From Desulfosarcinaceae bacterium (GTDB taxonomy: Bacteria; Desulfobacterota; Desulfobacteria; Desulfobacterales; Desulfosarcinaceae), in NCBI GenBank assembly GCA_030066015.1, contig JASJCL010000015.1:1-64000 (forward strand): a stretch of DNA of 64,000 nucleotides, written 5' to 3'. Positions 3,643 through 64,000 of the stretch are shown here, in pieces. The translations under genes and the position numbers were made by a program. The notes under the pieces were generated by a model. That model saw nothing but the letters and a program-made list of their open reading frames with translations, searched no databases and was not told the origin of the DNA. The stretch's first letter is position 1; each line of letters starts with the position of its first letter.

Positions 3643-4395
3643 ATGGCCTACTCTATCGCACTGGCCGGCAAAGGCGGCACGGGGAAAACCACTATCGCGG
3701 GAATGCTGATCCGCTATCTCGTCGCCAATGATCGCAAACCGGTGCTGGCCGTGGATGCGGACAGCAATGCCAACCTCAACGAAGTGTTGGGCCTGGATGT
3801 GGCATCTACCCTGGGAACGGCGCGCGAGGATATGAAGAAGGGCAATGTCCCCAGCGGCATGACCAAGGACATCTTCATGGAGATGAAATTGGAGGAGGCC
3901 GTCATCGAAACGGCCGACTACGACCTGGTCGTGATGGGCCAGCCCGAAGGCGCCGGCTGCTATTGTGCCGCCAATACCCTGTTGACCAATTTTCTGGAAC
4001 GTCTGGTGGGCAACTATAACCACGTGGTGATGGACAACGAGGCCGGCATGGAGCACATCAGCCGCCTGACCACCAGCGACGTCGATCTGCTGCTCATCGT
4101 GGCCGACACCTCCCGACGCGGCCTGCAGGCCGGGCTGCGCATTCAGCAGTTGGTCAAGGATCTCAACATCGGCGTCGACAGGACCTGCCTGGTGATCAAC
4201 CAGAGCAAGAGCGAGCCCCATCCCGAGGTGCTGCGGCTTGTCGATGAAGCCGGTCTGGAGCTGGCCGGCACCATACCGGCCGATGACGACGTGTATCGCC
4301 TCGACCTTGAGGGCAAACCCACCATCGCGCTGAGTGATGACAACCCCGCCATCGCGGCGGCCAACCGAATTTTCGACAAGATCCTGGCGGCCTGA
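3643..4395 (+). CDS. cooC: CooC-type nickel-insertion ATPase (CODH/ACS maturation)
   Basis: A 250-residue MinD/ParA-like P-loop ATPase. The deviant Walker A GKGGTGKTT starts at residue 9. A DAD segment (38-40) follows, and a CYC motif (Cys106, Cys108) is in the position of the metal-binding CxC of CooC proteins. CooC dimers bind Ni and help load it into carbon monoxide dehydrogenase or acetyl-CoA synthase. No CODH or ACS gene is in the window, so the partner is inferred from the family. AAAGGA lies 11 nt upstream of the ATG. The RACo-like gene at 9264 on the same strand supports a link to Wood-Ljungdahl C1 metabolism. Confidence 0.88.
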   Translation: MAYSIALAGKGGTGKTTIAGMLIRYLVANDRKPVLAVDADSNANLNEVLGLDVASTLGTAREDMKKGNVPSGMTKDIFMEMKLEEAVIETADYDLVVMGQPEGAGCYCAANTLLTNFLERLVGNYNHVVMDNEAGMEHISRLTTSDVDLLLIVADTSRRGLQAGLRIQQLVKDLNIGVDRTCLVINQSKSEPHPEVLRLVDEAGLELAGTIPADDDVYRLDLEGKPTIALSDDNPAIAAANRIFDKILAA

Positions 4396-4623
4396 TCGGT
4401 TCCTCTAAAGTTCGGCAATTCCGGCCGGCCGCTCTTAAGCGGCGGTGGGCGCACCCTGCCACCGCTCAAGCATATTGATGGTTGTGATCAGGAACGGGGC
4501 TCTCCGGTCGCCAAACCGGCGCCCTTTCACCCATGGCTGGCCGGTTCTCAACGGCCGCGGGTGTTTCGACGCGCTACCGGTGTCGCATCGGTGTCGCCGG
4601 AAGACCCCCGCCCGATGAGAACT

Positions 4624-4639
4624 TGGCACTTGACCCGCT
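4624..4639 (+). promoter_or_regulatory. Possible sigma-54 -24/-12 element before acuC
   Basis: A perfect TGGCAC (4624-4629) is followed by GC at 4637-4638, giving the required GG-N10-GC spacing. The -12 half (CCGCT) departs from TTGCW. Transcription would begin near 4650, just before the GGAGG at 4656-4660. The overlapping sigma-70-like pair TTGACC/TATAGT has only 14 nt of spacer. Suggestive only. Confidence 0.3.
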
Positions 4640-4664
4640 ACCGACACGCTATAGTGGAGGTCCC

Positions 4665-5615
4665 ATGAAACGAACCGGTTTCCTGCACGATATCCGTTAC
4701 CTGCTCCATGACACCGGTCCCTATCACCCCGAAATGGCCGAACGGCTTCAGGCGATCCAGAAAGGCGTCGAGGCCGCCGGCCTGCTGCCCCAGCTGACCG
4801 AGATCAAGGCCGTCCCCGCCGATATGGCGTGGATTGAAGCGGTGCATGCAACCGTCTACATCCGCCGTTTCGAGGAGGTCTGCCGCTCCGGCGTTCGCCA
4901 GTTCGACTACAGCGACAACCAAATGTGCACGGAAACCTACGACACCGCCATCCTGGCCGTGGGCGGGGTGCTGGAGGCCGTCCGAATGGTCATGGCCGGC
5001 GAGATCGACAACGCCTTCTGCGCCGTACGGCCCCCGGGCCACCACGCCGAGGTGGCCGAAGCGATGGGCTTTTGCTATTTCAACAACGTGGCCATCGCCG
5101 CCCGCTATCTCCAGAAGGAGTGGGGCATAGAACGGGTCGGTATCGTGGATTTCGACGTGCACCACGGGAACGGCACCGAGCACATCTTCGAAGAAGACCC
5201 CACTGTTTTCTACTACTCCATCCACGAGCACCCCTCCTTCGCCTTTCCCGGCACCGGCAGAGACTTTGACACCGGTAAAGGGGCGGGCAAGGGCTTCACC
5301 AAGAACTCCCCCATGTTGCCCGGGCAGGGCGACGAAGAGTTCAAGGCGCTGATCCAACAGGATCTGCTGCCTGCCTTCGAGGGCTTCCGGCCGGAGGTGA
5401 TCCTTGTTTCGGTGGGCTTCGACGCCCTGGATGCCGATGAGATGGCCGATATGCGCCTGTCGAGAGCCTGCTTCACCTGGATCGCCGAACAGCTCAAGGT
5501 TCTGGCCGACCAATATGCCGAGGGCCGCCTCATATCCGTGCTGGAGGGCGGCTATAGTATCGATCACCTGGGAGAACTGGCCGAAGATCATCTGAAGGTA
5601 CTGATGCGCGATTGA
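4665..5615 (+). CDS. acuC: Histone-deacetylase-family Zn amidohydrolase (class II-like / AcuC-like)
   Basis: A 316-residue arginase/deacetylase-fold enzyme expected to remove acetyl groups from lysines or small amines. The active-site signatures are clear: PPGHHA, the metal-binding DFDVHHGNG, SVGFDA and the C-terminal LEGGY tyrosine motif. I chose the ATG at 4665 because GGAGG lies 4 nt upstream; a start at 4533 would add an unlikely 44-residue extension. A CBS-ACT protein of AcuB type follows 74 nt downstream, which recalls the acuB-acuC pairing of Bacillus, where AcuC regulates acetyl-CoA synthetase. A second deacetylase of this superfamily is at 46770-47960. Confidence 0.88.
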   Translation: MKRTGFLHDIRYLLHDTGPYHPEMAERLQAIQKGVEAAGLLPQLTEIKAVPADMAWIEAVHATVYIRRFEEVCRSGVRQFDYSDNQMCTETYDTAILAVGGVLEAVRMVMAGEIDNAFCAVRPPGHHAEVAEAMGFCYFNNVAIAARYLQKEWGIERVGIVDFDVHHGNGTEHIFEEDPTVFYYSIHEHPSFAFPGTGRDFDTGKGAGKGFTKNSPMLPGQGDEEFKALIQQDLLPAFEGFRPEVILVSVGFDALDADEMADMRLSRACFTWIAEQLKVLADQYAEGRLISVLEGGYSIDHLGELAEDHLKVLMRD

Positions 5616-7458: not shown

Positions 7459-8298
7459 ATGCAGATCACATGCTGGGGGGCGCGGGGATCGATTCCCGTC
7501 TCCGGTAAAGAGTATATCCGCTACGGGGGCGACACGACCTGCTTGGAGATTCGGGCCCGCAGCGGCGACATCATCATCGTCGACGCCGGCACCGGCATTC
7601 GCCGCCTGGGGAACCATCTCCTGCGCGAGGGGCAGTACAAGTACAATTTCCTGCTGACCCATGCCCATTGGGATCACCTCATGGGCTTCCCCTTCTTCAA
7701 GCCGCTCTTTCTCCATTATCCCCAGATCCACATGCACCGGGGCCCTTTTCACGAAAAATATATGGAGAGCATGTTCTCCAAAGTGATGGCGCCGCCCAAT
7801 TTCCCGGTGCGCTACTCCGATCTGAAGGCGCAGATTATCTACGAGAAGGGCAATGCCGGCCCTTTCTCCATCGGATCGGTCACCGTGCACCCCGTCGCCA
7901 TCAGCCACCCCAATACCGGCAAGGGGTATAAGTTCGTCGAAGATGGCAAAAGCTTCATCTTCCTGACCGACAACGAGCTGGGCTTCGTTCATCCCGGTGG
8001 TCTCACCTTTGAGGACTACCGGCAATTCTGCGAGGGCGCGGATCTGATGCTCCACGATTCGGAGTACACGCCCGAAGAGTACAACCTGCTGCTCGAGTGG
8101 GGTCACTCCTCCTACGTTGACGCCCTTGAACTGGCCCTGGGGGCCGGCGTGGCCCGCTTCGGACTCTTTCACCACAATCAGGAGCGCACCGACGAACAGG
8201 TGGACGAGTTGGTGGGCAAATGCCAACGCATCATCGATGATCGCGGCAGCCAGATGGCGTGTTTTGCCGTGGGCAGCGACATGACCTTCGAATTGTAA
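7459..8298 (+). CDS. MBL-fold metallo-hydrolase
   Basis: A 279-residue metallo-beta-lactamase-fold protein. The binuclear metal motif HAHWDH covers residues 68-73 (His68, His70, Asp72, His73). A later SHP histidine (about 152), an FLTDNE aspartate (about 173-175) and an FHHN segment near 238 complete the site. It resembles the PhnP / cyclic-phosphodiesterase-like MBL group; the substrate is unknown. AAGGGAAGGA precedes the ATG. Intergenic gaps of 65 and 93 nt suggest cotranscription with prmA and the sirtuin gene. Confidence 0.8.
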   Translation: MQITCWGARGSIPVSGKEYIRYGGDTTCLEIRARSGDIIIVDAGTGIRRLGNHLLREGQYKYNFLLTHAHWDHLMGFPFFKPLFLHYPQIHMHRGPFHEKYMESMFSKVMAPPNFPVRYSDLKAQIIYEKGNAGPFSIGSVTVHPVAISHPNTGKGYKFVEDGKSFIFLTDNELGFVHPGGLTFEDYRQFCEGADLMLHDSEYTPEEYNLLLEWGHSSYVDALELALGAGVARFGLFHHNQERTDEQVDELVGKCQRIIDDRGSQMACFAVGSDMTFEL

Positions 8299-8391
8299 CG
8301 CCCTTCACCGCCGCCATATCGATCCCGCTGTTCGACTGCTTCGCCCGCTCGTTCACCCCTTTCACTCCCAATGCCATTCAAGGAACCCGGC

Positions 8392-9135
8392 ATGCAAACA
8401 TCCATCGACGCAGCGGCGCGCGTCCTGGCCCGCGCCAACATGGCGGTGGCCCTCACCGGCGCCGGCATCTCTGTTGAGAGCGGTATCCCCCCCTTTCGGG
8501 GCAAAGGCGGGTTGTGGGAGCGGTTCGATCCCATGACCTACGCCCATATCGACGCCTTTCGGCGACATCCCGAAAAGGTGTGGACGGTGCTGCTCAAAGT
8601 CCTCAGCGACACCCTCGGCAAGGCCCGGCCCAACGCGGCGCACAGGGGCCTGGCCGAAATGGAGCGGCGCGGCTGTCTGCAGGCCGTTATCACCCAGAAT
8701 GTGGACGGACTGCACCAGGACGCCGGCAGTCGCGAGGTGATCGAGTTCCACGGCAGCATGGCGAGCCACCATTGCATGGACTGCCATCAGGCGGCCCCCT
8801 CGGCAACCATCGATCTGGCCGATCTGCCGCCGCGCTGTGACTGCGGCGGCGTCTTGCGACCCGACATCGTCTTTTTCGGCGAGGCCATCCCCACAGCGGC
8901 GCTCCAGCGCAGCGCGCAGTTCGCCCGCATGTGTGACGCCATCCTGGTCGTGGGGACGTCGGCGACGGTGGAACCGGCCGCCACGCTGCCCCGCATCGCC
9001 AAGCAGCATGGGGCCAGCGTCATCGAGGTCAATCCCGAACCCACGTATCTCACCACCCTTAGCGACTTCAGCCTCATGGGCGCGGCCGGCGCCATTGTGT
9101 CCCGGCTGGTGACCGCCCTCGACGCCCACCTCTGA
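8392..9135 (+). CDS. cobB: NAD-dependent protein deacylase (sirtuin, CobB/SIR2)
   Basis: A 247-residue sirtuin. It shows the NAD-binding GAGIS (23-27), the TQNVDGLH loop (101-108), catalytic His120 in EFHGS, and a structural zinc site built from Cys128, Cys131, Cys149 and Cys151. Sirtuins remove acyl groups from lysine using NAD and release nicotinamide. I use the ATG at 8392, which has AAGGAA about 8 nt upstream, rather than the one 21 nt earlier. Together with acuC and acuB it makes a local cluster around protein acylation state. Acyl specificity cannot be read from the sequence. Confidence 0.92.
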   Translation: MQTSIDAAARVLARANMAVALTGAGISVESGIPPFRGKGGLWERFDPMTYAHIDAFRRHPEKVWTVLLKVLSDTLGKARPNAAHRGLAEMERRGCLQAVITQNVDGLHQDAGSREVIEFHGSMASHHCMDCHQAAPSATIDLADLPPRCDCGGVLRPDIVFFGEAIPTAALQRSAQFARMCDAILVVGTSATVEPAATLPRIAKQHGASVIEVNPEPTYLTTLSDFSLMGAAGAIVSRLVTALDAHL

Positions 9136-9263
9136 ACGCGGGCGCCGCCATATGCCGCCGCTGAAGATGGCCTTGCAATCCGAACGCAGCTTGAGTAAGG
9201 GGGGACAGCCCTCCGCCGCCGCCATGACCTGTGGGCTGCGCTGGATCGGCTTGTCGATAACGG

Positions 9264-10862
9264 ATGGTGGACACTTTGACCGCAACGACTGACGTGACGA
9301 CACCCCCCTGCAACGACGCGACGCGCTGGGTGCGGCGGGTTCGCCTGGTCCCTCCCTCCCTGGCGGACAACACGGCCGATGCCGACCGCCTCATCCGTGC
9401 GCTCCAACCGCAAACCGGTGGGCATTTTATCGAGATCCCGCTGAGCCTGCTGCAGGACCTGCCCGGCCGGCTGCGCCAGGCGGACTATCGGGTGGACTGC
9501 CTCCTCATCGAGGATCGCGGCCACCATCTCCTCACCCATGTTGCGGCGGCGGCGGCCGATGCGCCGCTTGCCGGATTGGCGGTCGACCTGGGCACCACCC
9601 GCATCGCCGCCCAGTTGGTGGACCTCCGAAACGGTCAAAGCTTGGCCGAAGCAGCCGTGGACAATCCCCAGCTGACCGTCGGTCCCGATGTCCTGGTGCG
9701 CATTCACCACAGCCAATCGCCGCAGGGCCGGGCGGCGCTTCAGCGTCAGGCGGCCGAAGGCATCAACCGGGCGGTCACCGACCTGTGCGCGCAAACCGCA
9801 CTGACGCCCGATGCGATCGCTCTCATGGTCGTGGCCGGCAACACGGCCATGACCCACCTCCTGCTGGGACTCGACGCCCGCTGGCTGATCCGGGAGCCCT
9901 ACATACCGGCCGCCAACCAACCCGGCATGATCCGCGCCCGCGATCTCGGGATCGCGATTCACAATCGGGCCCGCATCCTGGTGTTTCCCAATGTGGGCAG
10001 CTACTTCGGCGGCGACCTCATCGCCGGCATCCTTTACGCCGGTCTCCATCGGCGGTCCGATACCGCCATTCTCGTGGATGTGGGCACCAATGCGGAGGTG
10101 GTCCTGGGGAACCGCGACTGGATGATCGCCTGCGCCGGCGCCGCCGGGCCGGCACTGGAAGGGGGGATGAGCCGCATGGGCATGTTGGCCGGGCCGGGCG
10201 TGATCGACCGGGTGCGGATCGGGCCGGCGGGCGATCTACGGCTGGGCACCATCGGAAACGAAGCGCCCCGCGGCATTTGCGGCTCAGGGGTGATTGATCT
10301 GGCCGCCCAGTTGTTCCGCAACGGCTGGGTCGACATCCGCGGACGCCTCCTGCCAGAGCGCTGTCACGGCCGCTGCCGCGAGGTCGACGGCCAGCTGCAC
10401 CTCGATCTGGTGGCGGCTGCCGACGCCGCCAACGGGGAGACCCTCTCCATCGGCCAGGCCGATCTGGACAGCCTGATGCGCTCCAAAGCGGCCATGTACA
10501 CCATCCTGGAAACCCTCACCGGCCAGGTGGGCCTCACGCCCGAGCAGCTGACGACCTTCTATGTGGCCGGCACCTTCGGCTGCTTTATCGATCCAGAATC
10601 GGCGGTGACCATTGGAATGCTTCCCGATCTACCCCGGGAGCGCTATCACGCCCTGGGCAACAGCGCCCTGGGCGGCGCCGTGCGTCTCCTGAGCGATACC
10701 GGCGCACAGGCGGAGATCCGCCAGATCCAGGCCAATATCACCTATCTTGAGCTCAATGTGAACCAGGACTTCATGAACCGCTTTTCCGCCGCCAAGTTCC
10801 TGCCCCACACCGATCGGCAGCGGTTTCCGTCGATCCCATCGACAGCGGGGAACGACGCCTAG
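9264..10862 (+). CDS. RACo-like ASKHA corrinoid-protein reactivator lacking the ferredoxin domain
   Basis: A 532-residue DUF4445/RACo-type protein of the ASKHA fold. RACo uses ATP to restore inactive Co(II) corrinoid proteins to Co(I). A linker-type region (about 20-100) leads into the actin-like core starting AVDLGTTRIAAQL. VVAGNTAMTHLLLG, GGDLIAG, ILVDVGTNAEVVLG and CGSGVIDLAAQLF follow. The N-terminal [2Fe-2S] domain usual in RACo (a CxxxxxCxxC-type cluster) is absent: only Cys16 is found there. Electrons would have to come from a separate protein. No corrinoid protein is encoded nearby. The start lacks a strong ribosome site and could shift slightly. Confidence 0.82.
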   Translation: MVDTLTATTDVTTPPCNDATRWVRRVRLVPPSLADNTADADRLIRALQPQTGGHFIEIPLSLLQDLPGRLRQADYRVDCLLIEDRGHHLLTHVAAAAADAPLAGLAVDLGTTRIAAQLVDLRNGQSLAEAAVDNPQLTVGPDVLVRIHHSQSPQGRAALQRQAAEGINRAVTDLCAQTALTPDAIALMVVAGNTAMTHLLLGLDARWLIREPYIPAANQPGMIRARDLGIAIHNRARILVFPNVGSYFGGDLIAGILYAGLHRRSDTAILVDVGTNAEVVLGNRDWMIACAGAAGPALEGGMSRMGMLAGPGVIDRVRIGPAGDLRLGTIGNEAPRGICGSGVIDLAAQLFRNGWVDIRGRLLPERCHGRCREVDGQLHLDLVAAADAANGETLSIGQADLDSLMRSKAAMYTILETLTGQVGLTPEQLTTFYVAGTFGCFIDPESAVTIGMLPDLPRERYHALGNSALGGAVRLLSDTGAQAEIRQIQANITYLELNVNQDFMNRFSAAKFLPHTDRQRFPSIPSTAGNDA

Positions 10863-55195: not shown

Positions 55196-57058
55196 TTACG
55201 CCGCCATCTCTGCCGCCGCTTCGGCAGTGGCCGATGTCGGGCTCTGGGCCGATTGCGAGCGCACAGCAACGGCAATCGATTCAAGGGCTTTGCCCTCGAT
55301 TACCTCATCCTGCAGGAGCTGCCGCGCCGTCCGTTGCAGAAGATCTTTGTTCTCCTCCAGGATCCGGCAAGCCACGGCGTACTGCGTATCGATGATACGG
55401 CGTACCTCCTCATCGATGGTGCGGGCGGTTTCCTCGCTGTACTCACCGACGGCACCTGCCTCTTGACCCAGGAAGCGGGCCTGCCGCTTGGGGGCAAAGT
55501 ACACTTGACCCAGGCGATCACTCATGCCGTATTCACATACCATGCTGCGGGCCATGTCGGTGGCGCGCGACAGGTCGTTGTGCGCTCCGGTGGAGATGTC
55601 CTTGAAGATCAGCGCCTCCGCCGCCCGTCCGCCAAGGAGGGTGGCGATTCGGTGGTTCAGCTCGGTACGGCGCATGAGGAAGCGGTCTTCGGTGGGAACC
55701 TGCATGGTGTATCCCAACGCGGCGATACCCCGCGGGATGATAGAGATCTTCTGCACCGGATCCGCACCGGGAAGCGCCATGGCGACGATGGCGTGGCCCA
55801 ATTCGTGGTGGGCGACAATCTTCTTCTCCATGGGGTTGATGAGGCGGTTGCGCTTTTCCAGTCCGGCGACCACGCGCTCCACTGCCTCGGTGATTTCGGC
55901 CATACCGGTGCGGGCCTTCTTACGGCGCACTGCCAGTAAGGCGGCCTCGTTGACGATGTTGGCCAGATCGGCACCCACCATGCCCGCCGTCATGCCGGCG
56001 ATCCTCTCTGGATCGACATCCGATTCGGCTTCGATTTTATCCAGGTAGATCTTGAGAATGTCCGCCCGTCCAACCTTATCGGGACGGTCCACCAGTACTT
56101 GTCGATCGAACCGCCCTGGCCGCAGCAATGCCGGGTCGAGAATTTCCGGCCGGTTGGTGGCGGCCATGAGGATAACGCCCACGTTGGGGTCGAATCCGTC
56201 CAACTCCACCAGGAGCTGGTTGAGGGTCTGCTCGCGTTCGTCGTGTCCGCCGCCGATGGCGACGCCGCGGGCTTTACCGAGGGCGTCCAACTCATCAATG
56301 AAGATGATGCAGGGCGCCTTCTCCTTGGCTTGCTTGAAAAGATCGCGGACACGCGCCGCGCCCAGACCGACAAACATCTCCACAAACTCGGAACCGCTCA
56401 AGCTGAAGAAGGGCACCTCGCTCTCACCGGCTACCGCCTTGGCCAAGAGGGTTTTACCGGTACCGGGAGGCCCGACCAAGAGGATGCCCCTGGGAATCTG
56501 ACCGCCCATCCGGGTATAGCGTTGCGGTTCCTTGAGAAAGGCGATCACCTCCTCCAGCTCCTGTTTGGCTTCATCCACACCAGCGGCGTCGCCGAAGCGG
56601 ACGCCAACCTCTTCGTCCATGTAGATCTTTGCTTTGTTCTTCCCGAGGGTCATGAAGCCGGACTGCTGCTGAAATCGCCGCATGAGAAAGAGCCAGACGC
56701 CGACGAACAACGCCACGGGAATAATCCAGGAGAGGAGCGTGCCCAAAAAATTGGACTCAATGCGGCCGGAATAGGTAATGTCGTGCGCCGCCAGCAAATT
56801 GGAGATTTCCGGATCCACGCGAACCGTCCGGAATAGTTCGCCCGGTTTACCGTCGTCATCCGGCGACGCCATGCGGCCTTGAATCACATTTTCGGAAACG
56901 GCAATCTCCACCACTTGGCCCGCTTCGACCTGTTTGACGAACTCGCTATAGGGGATGCTCTTGATGGCCATCGCCGATGCGATCATATTGTGCAGCAAGA
57001 ATACCATCCAGATGCCGAGCAGGGCGTACCAAATGGAAAAGCGATGCTGTTTCTTCAT
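55196..57058 (-). CDS. ftsH: ATP-dependent zinc metalloprotease FtsH
   Basis: A 620-residue membrane AAA protease that degrades short-lived and misfolded membrane and cytosolic proteins. Two membrane helices (about 10-30 and 105-125) flank a periplasmic domain. The AAA module has Walker A GPPGTGKT (about 200) and Walker [12 protein letters not shown]. The zinc motif HELGH (about 420) has its third ligand Asp further on. The ATG at 57058 has AAAGGA about 6 nt upstream. It lies 134 nt downstream of lon on the same strand, so both proteases may share a transcript. Confidence 0.96.
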
Positions 57059-57192: not shown

Positions 57193-59706
57193 TTACCCAC
57201 ACACTGCCGTGGCCGGTTGTTGGATACAGGGTTCAAGGCTATCCGGTGGTGGGGCGAACAGTTCACCGGCGCCGCCGCCCGCCTTCCCCTGTGATGCTTC
57301 CGGGTCGTCGGGAAGAAGCTGTTTCAATACGGCATCGATATGATCGACCGGCACAAAGGTCATTGCATCCACCACCTCCGGCGGCAGCTCATCGAGATCG
57401 GCGCTGTTTTTGGACGGCAGAAAGACGGTCTTCAGACCCGCACGGTGTGCGGCGAGCGCCTTCATCTTCACCCCCCCCACCGGCAAGACCCGACCTCTCA
57501 AGGTGATCTCTCCCGTGATGCCCACATCGGCAGGCAGCGGGCGGTTGCCAAAGAGACTGATCAACGCCATCACCATTGCCACACCGGCAGAGGGACCATC
57601 TTTGGGCAGTGCCCCGGCCGGCACGTGCAGATGGACGTCGGACGTGTCGAAAGCGGCCGGATCGATGCCCAATCGGAGCGTTTGGGAGCGCACATAGCTC
57701 AGGGCGATCTCGGCGCTCTCCTTCATCACATCGCCGAGTTGACCGGTCAGCGTCAGACGGCCCTTGCCCGCCATTCGTGTCGCTTCGATGTGAAGTATAT
57801 CGCCGCCCACCGACGTTACGGCCAGGCCCGTGGCGATGCCAGGGATCCGCCGGACCTCCGGCAGTTCCGCGTCATAGGGCTCTTTTTTCAGGTATACGCG
57901 GACCAGCTTTGCGGTAACCACGACATGGGTCCACGCTTTTTCACTCAGCTGTACGATTCCCTTGCGACATACTGCCGCGATGTGACGCTCCAGGTTGCGG
58001 ACACCGGCCTCACGGGTATACCCTTGGATAAGCTTCAGGATCGCTTCATCCAAGAAGGTGATCTCTTTTTCCGTGAGCCCGTGGGCCTGCAGTTGACGGG
58101 GGATGAGATGCTGCCGGGCGATCTCCAGCTTTTCCAACTCCGTGTATCCATCGAGCGGTATAGTTTCCATACGGTCGCGCAGTGGCCCCGGTATGGTCTC
58201 CAACTGGTTGGCCGTCGCGATGAAGATCACCTCGCTGAGGTCAAAGTCTACATCCAGGTAATGGTCGCGAAACGTTCCATTCTGGGCCGGGTCCAGCACC
58301 TCCAGCAAGGCGCTGCTGGGATCGCCGCGCCAATCTTGGCCGATCTTGTCAATCTCATCCAACATGAAGACCGGATTGCGCGTACCGGCGCGCTTGATGG
58401 CCTGGATGATACGGCCGGGCATAGCACCCACGTAGGTGCGGCGGTGACCGCGGATTTCGGACTCGTCGCGCACCCCGCCCAAACTCATGCGCGTGAATTC
58501 CCGTCCCAAGGCGCGGGCGACACTCCGACCGAGGCTGGTTTTACCCACGCCAGGAGGGCCGGCCAGGCACAGGATAACCCCCAGGGGACTGCTTTCTGCT
58601 GGTGGGGCATCCGAACCCCGGCGTTGAATCAGGGAGCGCACGGCGATGAACTCGGTCAACCGCTCTTTGACTTCTTCAAGTCCGAAGTGGTCGGCGTCGA
58701 GGATCGCTCGGGCGGCCACCACATCGCCGGTCTCTTCGCTCATGGTTTCCCAGGGCAGGTCTATCAGCCAGTCCAAATAGGTTTTGATGATGGGGTGTTC
58801 GGCAGATTGCGGCGACATTTGACGGAAGCGTTCCAGCTCGCGCAGCGCTTCTTGGCGCGCCTCGGCAGGCATCTCTGACGCGGCGATCTTCTCGGCATAC
58901 GCCGCTGCCTCGTCGTGATCCTCATCCTCCTCACCCAGTTCTTTTTTGATGGCCGCCAGCTGCTGCCGCAGATAATAGTCCCGTTGGGACTTGTTCATCT
59001 TTTCCTTGATATCGGACTGAATCTTCTTCCCAATGGCGAGCTTCTCCTTCTCCCGGGAGAGATGGGCCAAAAGATCTCTGATCTTCTGTGAGGTGCTGTC
59101 CGTCTCCAGTAGCGCCTGGCGTGCTTCCAGCGGCATACTGCTATTGAAGGCGGTCACGTAGGCGAGCTGGAGTGGATCCTTTATCTGCGCAATGGCGTTC
59201 ACCAGCCCCTCACCGCCGTCCGAACGCATCTTCATGATCTCCGTCACCATGCCGACCAGATGCCGCTGTAGCACTTCCAGCTCCAGGCCCTCCTCCACGA
59301 CTTCGGGGGCCTGGATCACCTTTGCCGTCAGGTATCGGTCGTGGGAGGCCCATTCGGTTACCCGAAAACGATGACGTCCTTCGAGCAGGATGACCAGGAA
59401 TCCCTCTTCATTCTTCTTGACCTGCAGAATTTTCGCGATGGTGCCGACGGTGTGCATATCCTCGGGCTGCGGGTCGTCTCGATCCTCCGACCTAACCGTC
59501 AGCAGACCGACGATCTGATCCGTCCGCATGGCGTCATCGACAACCGAATCCGCTTTCAGGGACACGACGAAGGGTACCCGCATCTGTGGATATGCGACGA
59601 GGCCACGGACGGGTAGTATGGGCAGAACATCTTCATCGACCCTGTCAAAGGTTTCCACGTTGGCGTCGGTTTTATCGGTATCCGGATGTGCCGTATCTGT
59701 CTTCAT
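57193..59706 (-). CDS. lon: Lon ATP-dependent protease
   Basis: An 837-residue cytosolic protease. The N-terminal substrate domain (about 25-225; LPILPVRGLVAYPQ) is followed by a coiled coil. The AAA module has Walker A GPPGVGKTSLG (about 380), and the protease domain ends with the Ser-Lys dyad (Ser in KDGPSAGVAM, Lys further on). The length is typical. GAGGTG lies about 6 nt before the ATG. It is the first gene of lon-ftsH and is divergent from the CarH-like regulator, whose operator lies 70-100 nt upstream of the lon ATG. Confidence 0.96.
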   Translation of the reverse strand: MKTDTAHPDTDKTDANVETFDRVDEDVLPILPVRGLVAYPQMRVPFVVSLKADSVVDDAMRTDQIVGLLTVRSEDRDDPQPEDMHTVGTIAKILQVKKNEEGFLVILLEGRHRFRVTEWASHDRYLTAKVIQAPEVVEEGLELEVLQRHLVGMVTEIMKMRSDGGEGLVNAIAQIKDPLQLAYVTAFNSSMPLEARQALLETDSTSQKIRDLLAHLSREKEKLAIGKKIQSDIKEKMNKSQRDYYLRQQLAAIKKELGEEDEDHDEAAAYAEKIAASEMPAEARQEALRELERFRQMSPQSAEHPIIKTYLDWLIDLPWETMSEETGDVVAARAILDADHFGLEEVKERLTEFIAVRSLIQRRGSDAPPAESSPLGVILCLAGPPGVGKTSLGRSVARALGREFTRMSLGGVRDESEIRGHRRTYVGAMPGRIIQAIKRAGTRNPVFMLDEIDKIGQDWRGDPSSALLEVLDPAQNGTFRDHYLDVDFDLSEVIFIATANQLETIPGPLRDRMETIPLDGYTELEKLEIARQHLIPRQLQAHGLTEKEITFLDEAILKLIQGYTREAGVRNLERHIAAVCRKGIVQLSEKAWTHVVVTAKLVRVYLKKEPYDAELPEVRRIPGIATGLAVTSVGGDILHIEATRMAGKGRLTLTGQLGDVMKESAEIALSYVRSQTLRLGIDPAAFDTSDVHLHVPAGALPKDGPSAGVAMVMALISLFGNRPLPADVGITGEITLRGRVLPVGGVKMKALAAHRAGLKTVFLPSKNSADLDELPPEVVDAMTFVPVDHIDAVLKQLLPDDPEASQGKAGGGAGELFAPPPDSLEPCIQQPATAVCG

Positions 59707-59773
59707 GGGTCACCTCGTAGGTAGTGGACGCTGGACCTATATAAATTGGTTTGCTAGTCGTTGGCCGAAATAA

Positions 59774-59806
59774 TTTACACAAAATTTAAACATTATCTTG
59801 ACACGT
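59774..59806 (+). promoter_or_regulatory. Three 11-bp direct repeats, CarH-type operator candidate
   Basis: TnnACA recurs with exact 11-bp phasing: T59776/ACA59779-59781, T59787/ACA59790-59792 and T59798/ACA59801-59803. The units begin at 59774, 59785 and 59796. The last coincides with the TTGACA -35 box. No fourth unit fits upstream or downstream. As I recall it, T. thermophilus CarH binds tandem 11-bp TnnACA repeats that overlap the -35 element. Here the CarH-like gene itself starts 30 nt downstream. Confidence 0.65.
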
Positions 59807-59826
59807 TCAATTTTTTTTTTTAGATT
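59798..59826 (+). promoter_or_regulatory. Promoter for the CarH-like gene
   Basis: A perfect TTGACA (59798-59803), a 17-nt spacer including ten T, and TAGATT (59821-59826, four of six). The start point would fall at about the ATG (59833). No ribosome-binding site is present, so the transcript is probably leaderless. The third operator unit covers the -35 box. Confidence 0.5.
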
Positions 59827-59832
59827 TTCATC

Positions 59833-60810
59833 ATGAGTACCCCGCTACGACATCCCATCAAATACGTGGCCCAGGTAACCGGCTTGAAGCCTTACCTCAT
59901 CAGGAGCTGGGAAGAGCGCTATGCTGCCGTGACGCCGCAACGCACCAACACCAACCGGCGCATGTACTCGGATCGCGAGATTCGGCGACTCATTCTCCTC
60001 CGGCGTGCCGTCACGGAGGGACACACCATATCGGCCGTGGCCGGATTGTCGGACGCCGATTTGGAGGCACTTGCGGGGCGATCGACACTCCCCCCGAACG
60101 ACGCCGTGCCGGCCCGTCCGCACGACGCCACTACGGATTCAGCGACGGATCCTCAGGTGATGCGTTGCCATGAGGTGGTCGCCGCTGCGATGGCCCATGT
60201 ATCGCATCTGGATGGACACGCCCTTGAGGACACGCTCGCTTCGGCTTCAGTGGAGCTGCCCCGTCAGGCCCTTCTCCAACAGGTGATCGTTCCATTGTTT
60301 GAGCAGATTGGTAGCCTATGGCGAGACGGCAGGCTCAAAATCGTCAACGAGCACATGGCATCGGCCGTCGTGCGCGCACTGCTCTGGGATCTGCTGCGCT
60401 CGGCGCAGGTGGACAATTCCGCACCACGCGCGCTGGTGGCGACGCCCACAGGTCACTGGCACGAATGCGGCGCGTTGGCGTCCGCCCTGACCGCCGCGGA
60501 GTGCGGTTGGCGAGCGCTGTATTTCGGTCCCAACCTGCCCGCTGAGGAGATCGCCTACGTGGCACGCAAGATGAAAACGCGCGCACTGATTCTGAGCATC
60601 GGCCACTGTCTCACCGACGGTGGCATCGTTTTGGAAATAAAACAGATTCGACATCTGTTGGGCAAAGGTCTGCCCATCCTGGTGGGGGGGGGCGGGCTCG
60701 CAGACGGAGAGGTAAAGAGGCTGGAAGGGCTGCACGTTGAAGAGGTTGCGTCGCTGATGATGTTGCGCCAACGTCTCGAAGAGATGGCGGTGACACAAGC
60801 GATCAGCTAG
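59833..60810 (+). CDS. carH: CarH-like MerR / cobalamin-binding transcriptional regulator
   Basis: A 325-residue protein. A MerR-type DNA-binding domain (1-80; LIRSWEERY, P-R and RRMYSDREIRRL) and a linker lead to a helical cap (about 115-190) with W163-x9-E173-H174, the cap-helix motif that covers adenosylcobalamin. A B12-binding Rossmann domain (about 198-315) has HECG around His210, the lower cobalt ligand, and YFGPNLP. CarH/LitR proteins repress in the dark as AdoCbl tetramers and release DNA on light. The residue after Trp163 is Arg, not the light-state cobalt-ligating His of Thermus CarH. The ATG at 59833 has no ribosome site. Confidence 0.9.
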   Translation: MSTPLRHPIKYVAQVTGLKPYLIRSWEERYAAVTPQRTNTNRRMYSDREIRRLILLRRAVTEGHTISAVAGLSDADLEALAGRSTLPPNDAVPARPHDATTDSATDPQVMRCHEVVAAAMAHVSHLDGHALEDTLASASVELPRQALLQQVIVPLFEQIGSLWRDGRLKIVNEHMASAVVRALLWDLLRSAQVDNSAPRALVATPTGHWHECGALASALTAAECGWRALYFGPNLPAEEIAYVARKMKTRALILSIGHCLTDGGIVLEIKQIRHLLGKGLPILVGGGGLADGEVKRLEGLHVEEVASLMMLRQRLEEMAVTQAIS

Positions 60811-60862
60811 GGTTGCGACAAATACTGTGTGGAAATGATTGGGATGTTCAAAAATTGCAATG

Positions 60863-60891
60863 ACAAACGGCAGCCAAGGGCTGCCGTTTGT
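60863..60891. terminator. Bidirectional terminator between carH-like and EF-hand genes
   Basis: CAAACGGCAGCC (60864-60875) and GGCTGCCGTTTG (60879-60890) form a 12-bp stem (13 with a closing A-T) with a 3-nt loop, then GTTTGTTTG on the plus strand. It lies between convergent genes, so it can serve both. The T-tracts are interrupted but the stem is strong. Confidence 0.65.
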
Positions 60892-60902
60892 TTGCGTGAT
60901 CG

Positions 60903-61193
60903 CTACTCTACACGCTCAACACCATGGGCCTCTCGAATAGCGTCCCACTCTGCTTCATCGATGAGATTGTCACCGTTGGTGTCGATCTTGTCGAAGCCAC
61001 TGCGCATCAGATCCACCTTCTTCTGACTGTACTCCTCGAAGCTCAAGGTTCGATCCTGGTCACTGTCCAATTTGGACATGTCCCAGGTGTATCCCTTTCC
61101 ATAGCATCCGTGGTAGTGGTGGCTGGCGAGGGCGCCAATAGGTGCAAGCAGCATCACGGCGAGAAGCAGGGTTACCATTTTTACGGTCTTCAT
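60903..61193 (-). CDS. Secreted EF-hand calcium-binding protein
   Basis: A 96-residue exported protein. A signal peptide (about 1-23, cleaved near ALAS-H) precedes a His/Tyr-rich start. Two EF-hand loops follow: DSDQDRTLSFEEY (about 43-55) and DTNGDNLIDEAEW (about 71-83), both with the acidic positions needed for Ca2+. AAGGAGG lies 5 nt before the ATG. Its role is unknown; a periplasmic calcium sensor or binding protein is likely. The upstream region is AT-rich and holds an inverted repeat GGTTAT/ATAACC (61232-61248). Confidence 0.85.
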   Translation of the reverse strand: MKTVKMVTLLLAVMLLAPIGALASHHYHGCYGKGYTWDMSKLDSDQDRTLSFEEYSQKKVDLMRSGFDKIDTNGDNLIDEAEWDAIREAHGVERVE

Positions 61194-61525
61194 GTTGACC
61201 TCCTTGAGAAACTAATATCAATTATTGTAAAGGTTATGTTGAATAACCGTTTAGAAGCTAACCGTCCGAAGGGGATTGTCAATACCGATTGGCGCACGTC
61301 TGGCGCAGCGGCCCACGCAGTGACGCGGCGATAGGTCGGCGGAGGTGAATTCGCCATTTCACGCCGCGCATAAAGGAGATGGGGGCGGTGGCGCATCTGG
61401 GGATCGGTCACCGTCGGTTTGGCCATCGGGTAACATAACCCGCCGCGGCCCAACCGATGCAGAACCGTCCTTTGAGGGGCCGACGCAAAGTGCTTTCCCG
61501 GCCACCACGGGATGGCTGATGATCC
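61194..61525. other. Intergenic region upstream of the EF-hand gene
   Basis: 332 nt with no supported ORF. It begins with an AT-rich stretch carrying the inverted repeat GGTTAT (61232-61237) / ATAACC (61243-61248). A minus-strand TTGACA is at 61277-61282 with no good -10 box. The remainder has typical GC and no visible gene. Confidence 0.4.
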
Positions 61526-62927: not shown

Positions 62928-63875
62928 TTAAGCTGTTTGAAAGAGGGCTTCGCAGATCGCCTGCACGTGACGATGATCGGTTCCGCAGCAGCCGCCGAAA
63001 ATGTTCAGTAGCGGCAGGCGCGCGCGAAGGGCTTGGTAATGGCTAGCCAACGCCGCCATGTCGCCGCTGTCCAGGGCGGTGGCCTCATCCAGCTCGGCAT
63101 GGCTCTTTTCCGATGCGTTGGCTCTCACGGCCCGGATACGTCGCACCCAATCCGCTCCTTGAGTGAGCGCCGCTGAGAAGTGGGTGGGATGGGCGCAGTT
63201 GATCATATAGTAGGCAGGGCCGGCCTGGGTTTCCCGGTCCACCGCCATGATGGCTGCGGCGAGCGATTCACCCGAGGGTAGGCGTCCGTCGGTCTCAACG
63301 GTGAAGCCGATGGCCGATGGCATTCCCGCCGCCTGGGCGGCGCGGACGATGCCCACTGCCTCTTCGCTGTAGGTGATGGTGAAGGCGCTCACCAGGTCCG
63401 CCTGGGTGCGGCTCAAGGTGTCGATCTGCTCCTGGTGGTATGCCTTGGCCTCGCCTGCGCTCATGGTGCTGTCCACCTGGTAGCCGTCTCCACGCGGACC
63501 GATGCACCCGCTGACGACCACGGGCGTGGATGGACACTGCCATTCCTGTCGAAGCTCGTGGAGCAGGGCGATCGCCTGGCGGTTGATCTCGGCCAGCTCG
63601 GTTGGTGCGTATCCCAACACCCGCCCCCAATCGCGGCTGGCCCGCCAAGTGGGACTCTCGAGGATGAAACCGGTGCCAAAATTTCTGGCCTGCCGGAGGT
63701 AGTCGCGGTAGTAGTCCCGCAGGACGGTGTAGCCTTCCGGCCGCCGGAACAGATCGAAAGCGGCGAAGGCAGGTAGCTCGTAGCCGTGGTCAAAAATCAG
63801 GGTTGTTTCCAGACCGCCATCGGTGATGAAGGGATGGCTGTCGAGTTGGGGCAGATGGTGACGATGCTGGCGCAT
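62928..63875 (-). CDS. Homocysteine S-methyltransferase family protein (canonical N-terminus)
   Basis: A 315-residue zinc methyltransferase. The family signature DGGLET (19-24) is intact. The zinc cysteines are Cys227 (NCAHPTHF) and Cys296-Cys297 (GGCCGT). It is more canonical than the paralogue at 124-1035, which lacks DGGLET. The ATG at 63875 has AAGGAGG 5 nt upstream. It lies downstream (in transcription) of the window edge and 23 nt upstream of the STAS stop-side region. The donor is unknown. Confidence 0.9.
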   Translation of the reverse strand: MRQHRHHLPQLDSHPFITDGGLETTLIFDHGYELPAFAAFDLFRRPEGYTVLRDYYRDYLRQARNFGTGFILESPTWRASRDWGRVLGYAPTELAEINRQAIALLHELRQEWQCPSTPVVVSGCIGPRGDGYQVDSTMSAGEAKAYHQEQIDTLSRTQADLVSAFTITYSEEAVGIVRAAQAAGMPSAIGFTVETDGRLPSGESLAAAIMAVDRETQAGPAYYMINCAHPTHFSAALTQGADWVRRIRAVRANASEKSHAELDEATALDSGDMAALASHYQALRARLPLLNIFGGCCGTDHRHVQAICEALFQTA

Positions 63876-64000
63876 ATTGGCCTCCTTTGGGAAGTGGCGC
63901 GGGGCTGCCGCCCCCTCGGGCCGCGTCGACAATGCGGTGCGGCGATGCCGGGGGTGATTGTCCCGTTGAGGGGCAGCATGGGGCCCCGTGCGGGATGCTT

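Follow-up and report, generated by a model that had tools for sequence, protein, structure and literature searches.

A conserved CarH-type repeat array between a CarH-like regulator gene and a divergent lon gene in a Desulfosarcinaceae bacterium

In the window, here the whole 64,000-nt stretch analysed (positions 1 to 64,000 of contig JASJCL010000015.1 from a Desulfosarcinaceae bacterium), a gene for a CarH-like regulator is divergent from lon, which is followed by ftsH, and convergent with a gene for a small EF-hand protein (Table 1). The lon-carH intergenic region holds an array of direct repeats that overlaps predicted promoters on both strands, and a second, less regular array lies upstream of the EF-hand gene. 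The hairpin between the convergent genes, a probable terminator, was not among the sites listed by the terminator scan. A Homocysteine S-methyltransferase family protein (Pfam S-methyl_trans; 62928-63932, minus strand) is encoded near the CarH locus. The genome carries a corrinoid adenosyltransferase gene and a dsrA match above cut-off, the latter indicating a probable sulfate reducer and fitting the putative anaerobe proposed in the first-pass annotation. No crtI-family match above cut-off was found in any of five genomes (0/5), the many weak matches being to FAD enzymes.

Table 1 Features of the carH locus in window coordinates
Feature	Position	Strand	Basis
ftsH, following lon; homology-based start 57058, longest frame opens 57202	55196..57058	-	Pfam Peptidase_M41, FtsH_ext
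lon, divergent from carH, CarH-linked Lon clade	57193..59706	-	TIGR00763 889.8 bits; tree
Putative operator of the CarH type; direct repeats nnnnTnnACAn (11 bp, three copies) with motifs at 59776, 59787 and 59798	59772..59804	+	read directly, kept in orthologues
Predicted divergent lon promoter, -35 TTGAAC (59810-59805), 16 nt, -10 TAAATT (59788-59783)	59783..59810	-	same layout in 9/9 lon-linked loci
Predicted carH promoter, -35 TTGACA (identical with the third repeat), spacer 17 nt, -10 TAGATT (59821-59826)	59798..59826	+	promoter scan
carH-like; 325-aa regulator of the MerR family with a cobalamin-binding domain	59833..60810	+	Pfam, Foldseek, signature residues
Probable terminator hairpin where carH and the EF-hand gene converge	60862..60892	.	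-27.4 kcal/mol, z -5.4
Small EF-hand protein, signal-like N-terminus, convergent with carH	60903..61193	-	Pfam EF-hand_1
Probable second operator, TAAACG, TCAACA, TTTACA, 11-bp spacing, one mismatch	61226..61253	-	similar in L044, L049

Direct reading of the window gives three TnnACA motifs, TACACA (59776-59781), TAAACA (59787-59792) and TTGACA (59798-59803), spaced exactly 11 bp apart. This bears out the first-pass annotation, which had described the same spacing, with the last motif serving as the carH -35, and had likened the array to the operator of Thermus thermophilus CarH (TtCarH). The likeness is matched in the available sections of PMC9304148, where the TtCarH operator consists of three tandem 11-bp repeats nnnnTnnACAn, one of which includes the -35. 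The same sections describe, for myxobacterial CarH and CarA, arrays of full and pseudo-repeats with a TTGACA -35 in one repeat, some lying between divergent genes, and the window array shares this arrangement. Judged by its sequence, the triple array upstream of carH is an operator of the CarH/LitR type in a dsrA-bearing genome, and binding of the regulator to it is predicted.

The carH promoter scored 10 of 12 in the promoter scan, and its -10 is followed by 6 nt and then the ATG. Promoters of this kind were found by script at 11 homologue loci, with 6 nt between -10 and ATG in six of them (L045, L051, L052, L061, L071 and L121) and 23 nt in L098; at L044, L046, L047 and L048, where the script chose another -10 or start, the distances read by eye are 6, 7, 6 and 6 nt. 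Because the -10 mostly ends 6 nt before the ATG across loci, transcription of carH is predicted to start at or near the ATG, giving a leaderless mRNA. Sites of classic MerR activators sit within a long -35/-10 spacer of ~19-20 nt. Activation across such a spacer was rejected here, as the carH spacer is 17 nt and the array lies at and upstream of the -35; the 17-nt spacer suits a repressor better than a MerR-type activator.

The regulator has an N-terminal MerR-type DNA-binding domain (Pfam MerR_1, 50.7 bits, residues 9-73) and a match to Pfam B12-binding_2 (30.6 bits), while no match to the Pfam Rossmann B12-binding domain was reported. Against the NCBIfam CarH equivalog, a narrow curated model that is no defining feature of the wider family, it scores 109.1 bits, far below the cut-off of 400. 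Its best solved relatives by sequence are TtCarH (PDB 5c8d, 5c8e; ~25% identity) and then CtMerR of Chloracidobacterium thermophilum (PDB 8jbs, 8jbt; 26% identity over the cobalamin domain). The AlphaFold model (pLDDT 92) finds its best Foldseek matches in TtCarH, and the cobalamin domains superpose with TMt of about 0.82-0.86 and rmsd of about 2.6-3.1. The model thus has the four-helix plus Rossmann CarH fold, behind a MerR DNA-binding domain as in TtCarH. Full-length superposition on TtCarH is poor (rmsd 10-17), so the placement of the domains differs.

All motifs of light-responsive cobalamin domains given in the accessible parts of PMC11796333 (GxxW, EH, GxxH and GxxxP) are kept, as G160xxW163, E173H174, G207xxH210 and G232xxxP236, and CtMerR keeps them too. 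Trp163, Glu173 and His174, equivalent to TtCarH Trp131, Glu141 and His142, occur in 37/37 aligned homologues, and His210, equivalent to the cobalt ligand His177, in 36/37. A lon-linked CarH of G031 (L036/L051) has Tyr in place of this ligand and is the sole such row of 37. With its CarH fold and AdoCbl signature residues the gene deserves the label CarH-like that it had been given at first pass, and the protein, which has a full cobalamin domain with the ligand His, is expected to load cobalamin. Class II LitR proteins of Pseudomonas are likewise of the MerR family and are described, in the text available from PMC9758184, as light-dependent repressors with photolyase-type targets that act with a LOV partner and keep the four-helix domain only, with no Rossmann domain for B12 binding. 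Membership of that class was considered and rejected, the window protein having a Rossmann domain with the ligand His.

Three positions differ from TtCarH: the upper-ligand His132 is replaced by Arg (Arg164 of the window protein), Arg176 by Trp and Asp201 by Asn (TtCarH numbering). In TtCarH, Arg176 and Asp201 are in contact. His at the His132 position is found in 0/12 Desulfobacterota-like homologues and in 1/37 aligned rows, and CtMerR, like the window protein, has Arg there.

The array is probably the operator of the adjacent regulator, a CarH-type (class I LitR-like) AdoCbl-dependent repressor that would control both carH and the divergent lon. Of the alternatives, the one that fares best concerns the signal: the protein may sense AdoCbl supply or redox state and not light, switching lon and carH by B12 status or exposure to oxygen in an anaerobe of dark sediment. 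The Arg at the His132 position is in its favour, TtCarH requiring both His132 and O2 for full light-driven dissociation and integrating light and oxygen (PMC10442372, in its available sections), as are the lack of crtI above cut-off and the divergence of one homologue (L037/L071) from cydA. We nevertheless find it rather doubtful, given that every light-responsive motif is kept, that genes for repair of UV or light damage lie near some relatives (UvdE at L172, a photolyase-related gene at L033), and that CtMerR, with the same Arg, loses its adenosyl group on illumination, albeit with no monomerisation under anaerobic conditions (PMC11796333, as far as its available text goes).

The operator also covers the predicted promoter of lon, whose -10 TAAATT falls inside it, and lon is a likely output that the first-pass annotation had overlooked. 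The distance from operator to lon start is 69 bp in the window and 36-85 bp across nine loci examined. A lon-strand TTGnnn-16-TAnnnT layout with its -10 inside the operator was matched by regular expression at 8/9 lon-linked loci, and at the ninth, L049, a scoring scan returned TTGACA-16-TAATTT; the layout was found post hoc, its hexamers are weak and the second repeat supplies part of the -10. The last repeat is followed at a constant offset by the CAA underlying the lon -35 in 7/7 aligned lon loci and in 1/23 other arrays; this count leaves out L049, in which the array is displaced by one repeat, and L172, in which the carH-side array lies ~1 kb from lon. The sole non-lon array with this CAA is that of L071, where cydA diverges close by. 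At L044, two other lon promoter candidates outscore the one overlapping the operator. A heat-shock promoter for lon, judged by eye only, was inconsistent between loci and was rejected. Downstream, ftsH follows lon in 4/7 lon loci, some of the loci being cut by contig ends.

With a convergent gene downstream of carH and no second strict array in the genome, lon would be the natural output of the regulator. Pure autoregulation, in which the operator serves carH only, the lon promoter is independent of CarH and the adjacency is historical, is unlikely. The -35 fit is indeed clear for carH only and the lon hexamers are weak, but the gap to the lon start is short in all nine loci, the lon-strand -35/-10 layout is conserved, one clade of Lon stays with CarH-type genes, and a regulator with no other strict genomic site would control itself alone.

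That Lon clade is distinct. Lon matches were obtained in 97/97 genomes, with two or more in 93/97, a figure that contig-edge pieces may inflate. Among the matches listed, the window Lon is 55-69% identical to one group and about 45-53% identical to the rest, including two further Lons of its own genome (G000; 51% and 46%). A tree of 22 selected Lons groups ten encoded beside CarH-type genes (among them that of L043, beside a type without the B12 signature, and that of L172, whose carH neighbour is a fragment truncated at a contig end) in one clade (support 100/99) together with that of G021, a contig-end case in which linkage is not assessable; the two other G000 Lons sampled lie apart from it. 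The CarH-type genes beside this clade that have no His177 ligand are those of G031/L051 (Tyr) and G025/L043 (Cys). Lon adjoins 7/80 homologue loci, all seven within the 11 loci whose titles name Desulfo- or Deltaproteobacteria. A TnnACA pair was found in ~500 bp upstream of 0/11 assessable unlinked Lons, the linked ones carrying arrays largely by construction, as these arrays are the promoters of carH.

When the intergenic regions of eight lon-carH loci are aligned, the array emerges as their conserved core, kept beside orthologues at ~50% protein identity. Perfect triples lie upstream of orthologues in G013, G028 and G029 and at loci L044, L045 and L049, and TnnACA pairs in G031 (two copies) and G061, with the pair of G057 on the other strand only. 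The array is common to orthologues including those of Desulfosarcina widdelii and D. alkanivorans, and the complete genomes of D. widdelii PP31 and D. alkanivorans PL12 also have the lon-carH arrangement. A wider set of homologue loci comprised the best 80 of 129 relatives from a GTDB genome scan, 75 of them with 300 bp upstream. At least two tandem TnnACA motifs at 11 bp, on either strand, were present in 52/75 loci, several of which are close relatives, so that the counts are not independent. Pairs at other spacings from 7 to 21 occur in 0-10 loci and at the harmonic 22 in 21 loci, while 100 mononucleotide shuffles of the upstream regions gave a mean of 1.18 and a maximum of 4 loci with an 11-bp pair. 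Three tandem motifs were found at 11 bp in 15/75 loci, at 22 bp in one and at the remaining spacings in none. The 11-bp pair is absent from 23/75 loci, a few of which (e.g. L050 and L076) reflect a wrong start picked by the script and do have arrays.

Perfect TnnACA triples at 11 bp number one in the window, against 0.01 expected (100 shuffles), and a whole-genome pattern search returned one in the 5.73 Mb of G000 and none for the reversed control pattern. When the array was combined with a TTGACA -35 and a TAnnnT -10, the operator site was again the sole match in the genome (control 0). That the array arose by chance in AT-rich intergenic DNA, a view for which the short motif and the frequency of one-mismatch triples (10 in G000 vs 7 for the reversed control) could be cited, is very improbable in the face of this rarity, the conservation in orthologues and the sharp 11-bp peak. 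The first-pass annotation had judged a chance match unlikely, which stands, and had named absence of the repeats from close relatives as a refutation, a test that the array passed.

The second array, also overlooked at first pass, comes directly after TTGACA (61282-61277)-16-TAGCTT (61260-61255) on the side of the EF-hand gene. An EF-hand gene lies beside carH in G013, G029, L044 and L049 as well; the counterpart in L044 is TAAACA-TAAACA after TTGACA-16-TAATAT and that in L049 TTAACA-TAAGCA-TAAACA after TTGACA-16-TATTCT, in G013 and G029 the best candidate is a degenerate array with four mismatches. Among 18 loci read in a survey of EF-hand homologues, a TnnACA pair was found in the window only. 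Because one-mismatch triples are frequent in the control too, the EF-hand array is the only one of this kind retained, on the support of L044 and L049; it probably puts the EF-hand gene under the same control as carH.

The search for further strict promoter-type arrays in the same genome returned the carH operator only, and no TnnACA pair was found in 18 kb read around its photolyase-related gene. Arrays elsewhere in relatives, taken from the matches listed, had no common target among 13 loci read. Upstream of a 410-aa protein in G029, which from its sequence looks like a PAS-type sensor, a perfect triple ends in TTGACA (L125, 1501-1528), making this gene a possible distant target. Neighbours across the 80 homologue loci, families being named from sequence with Pfam run only on UvdE and photolyase-related examples, include crtI-like (16), fasciclin-like (15), DUF4397-like (10), photolyase-like (6) and UvdE-like (2) genes. 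A UvdE-type UV endonuclease (L172 in G084, 1249-2172) and a photolyase-related protein (L033 in G013, 3884-5470) are each encoded a few kb from a lon-carH locus, a hint of light damage. At L037 (G061, 7679-10156; the L071 locus), the CarH homologue divergent from cydA (cytochrome bd oxidase) keeps Arg176 and Asp201, and its TnnACA pair ends in the -35 TTGACA.

A second type of regulator, L039-L043 (from G021, G013, G037, G029 and G025), forms its own branch (100/100), all members of which (5/5) have Gly for Glu141 and Cys for His177. TnnACA pairs lie 0.16-1.6 kb upstream, and at L040-L042 the pair and a promoter precede a gene resembling that for the APS reductase beta subunit (Pfam run on L040 only). 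In G025 a regulator of this ligand-less type is encoded divergently from a lon gene belonging to the linked clade; there, a B12-independent regulator may have taken over the lon arrangement. For myxobacteria, where the targets are carotenogenic genes, the sections available from PMC9304148 describe a B12-independent paralogue next to the B12-dependent one; L039-L043 are a separate branch among the rows compared, in a tree without CarA.

In the proposed mechanism, AdoCbl-loaded CarH would bind the array in the dark, blocking both the carH promoter, with the third repeat as its -35, and the overlapping divergent promoter of the dedicated lon, behind which ftsH lies in the window. Light or loss of AdoCbl would free CarH, so that the regulator and a protein-quality-control protease would be produced together; the EF-hand gene would probably respond to the same CarH through the second array. 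On a wider reading, which is tentative and less likely than not, CarH proteins of sulfate-reducing Desulfobacterota without His132 would be oxygen-independent AdoCbl light switches. A single operator spanning two divergent promoters would serve a dedicated lon gene for protein quality control, in many cases accompanied by ftsH, and an EF-hand protein would come under the second array, in an anaerobic, carotenoid-free response to light damage.

The kind of operator was already known; what is new is the kind of host, an operator shared with a distinct lon, and an Arg-type cobalamin pocket in a likely anaerobe. Titles and abstracts in the open-licence PMC literature gave no report linking CarH with Lon, Desulfobacterota or leaderless mRNA, and PMC9614035, PMC5401885 and PMC11417400, in the portions available, use the same word pairs in contexts that are unrelated or only general. 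CarH is known chiefly as a switch for carotenoid synthesis. Unlike that of T. thermophilus CarH, the neighbour here is lon and not carotenoid genes, and a conserved CarH locus in dsrA-bearing genomes stands beside a protease, without the histidine thought to drive dissociation. In this way light or B12 may prompt an anaerobe to activate protein clean-up, and the locus makes two ideas testable: that a cobalamin photoreceptor can work without oxygen, and that anaerobes answer light by degrading damaged protein.
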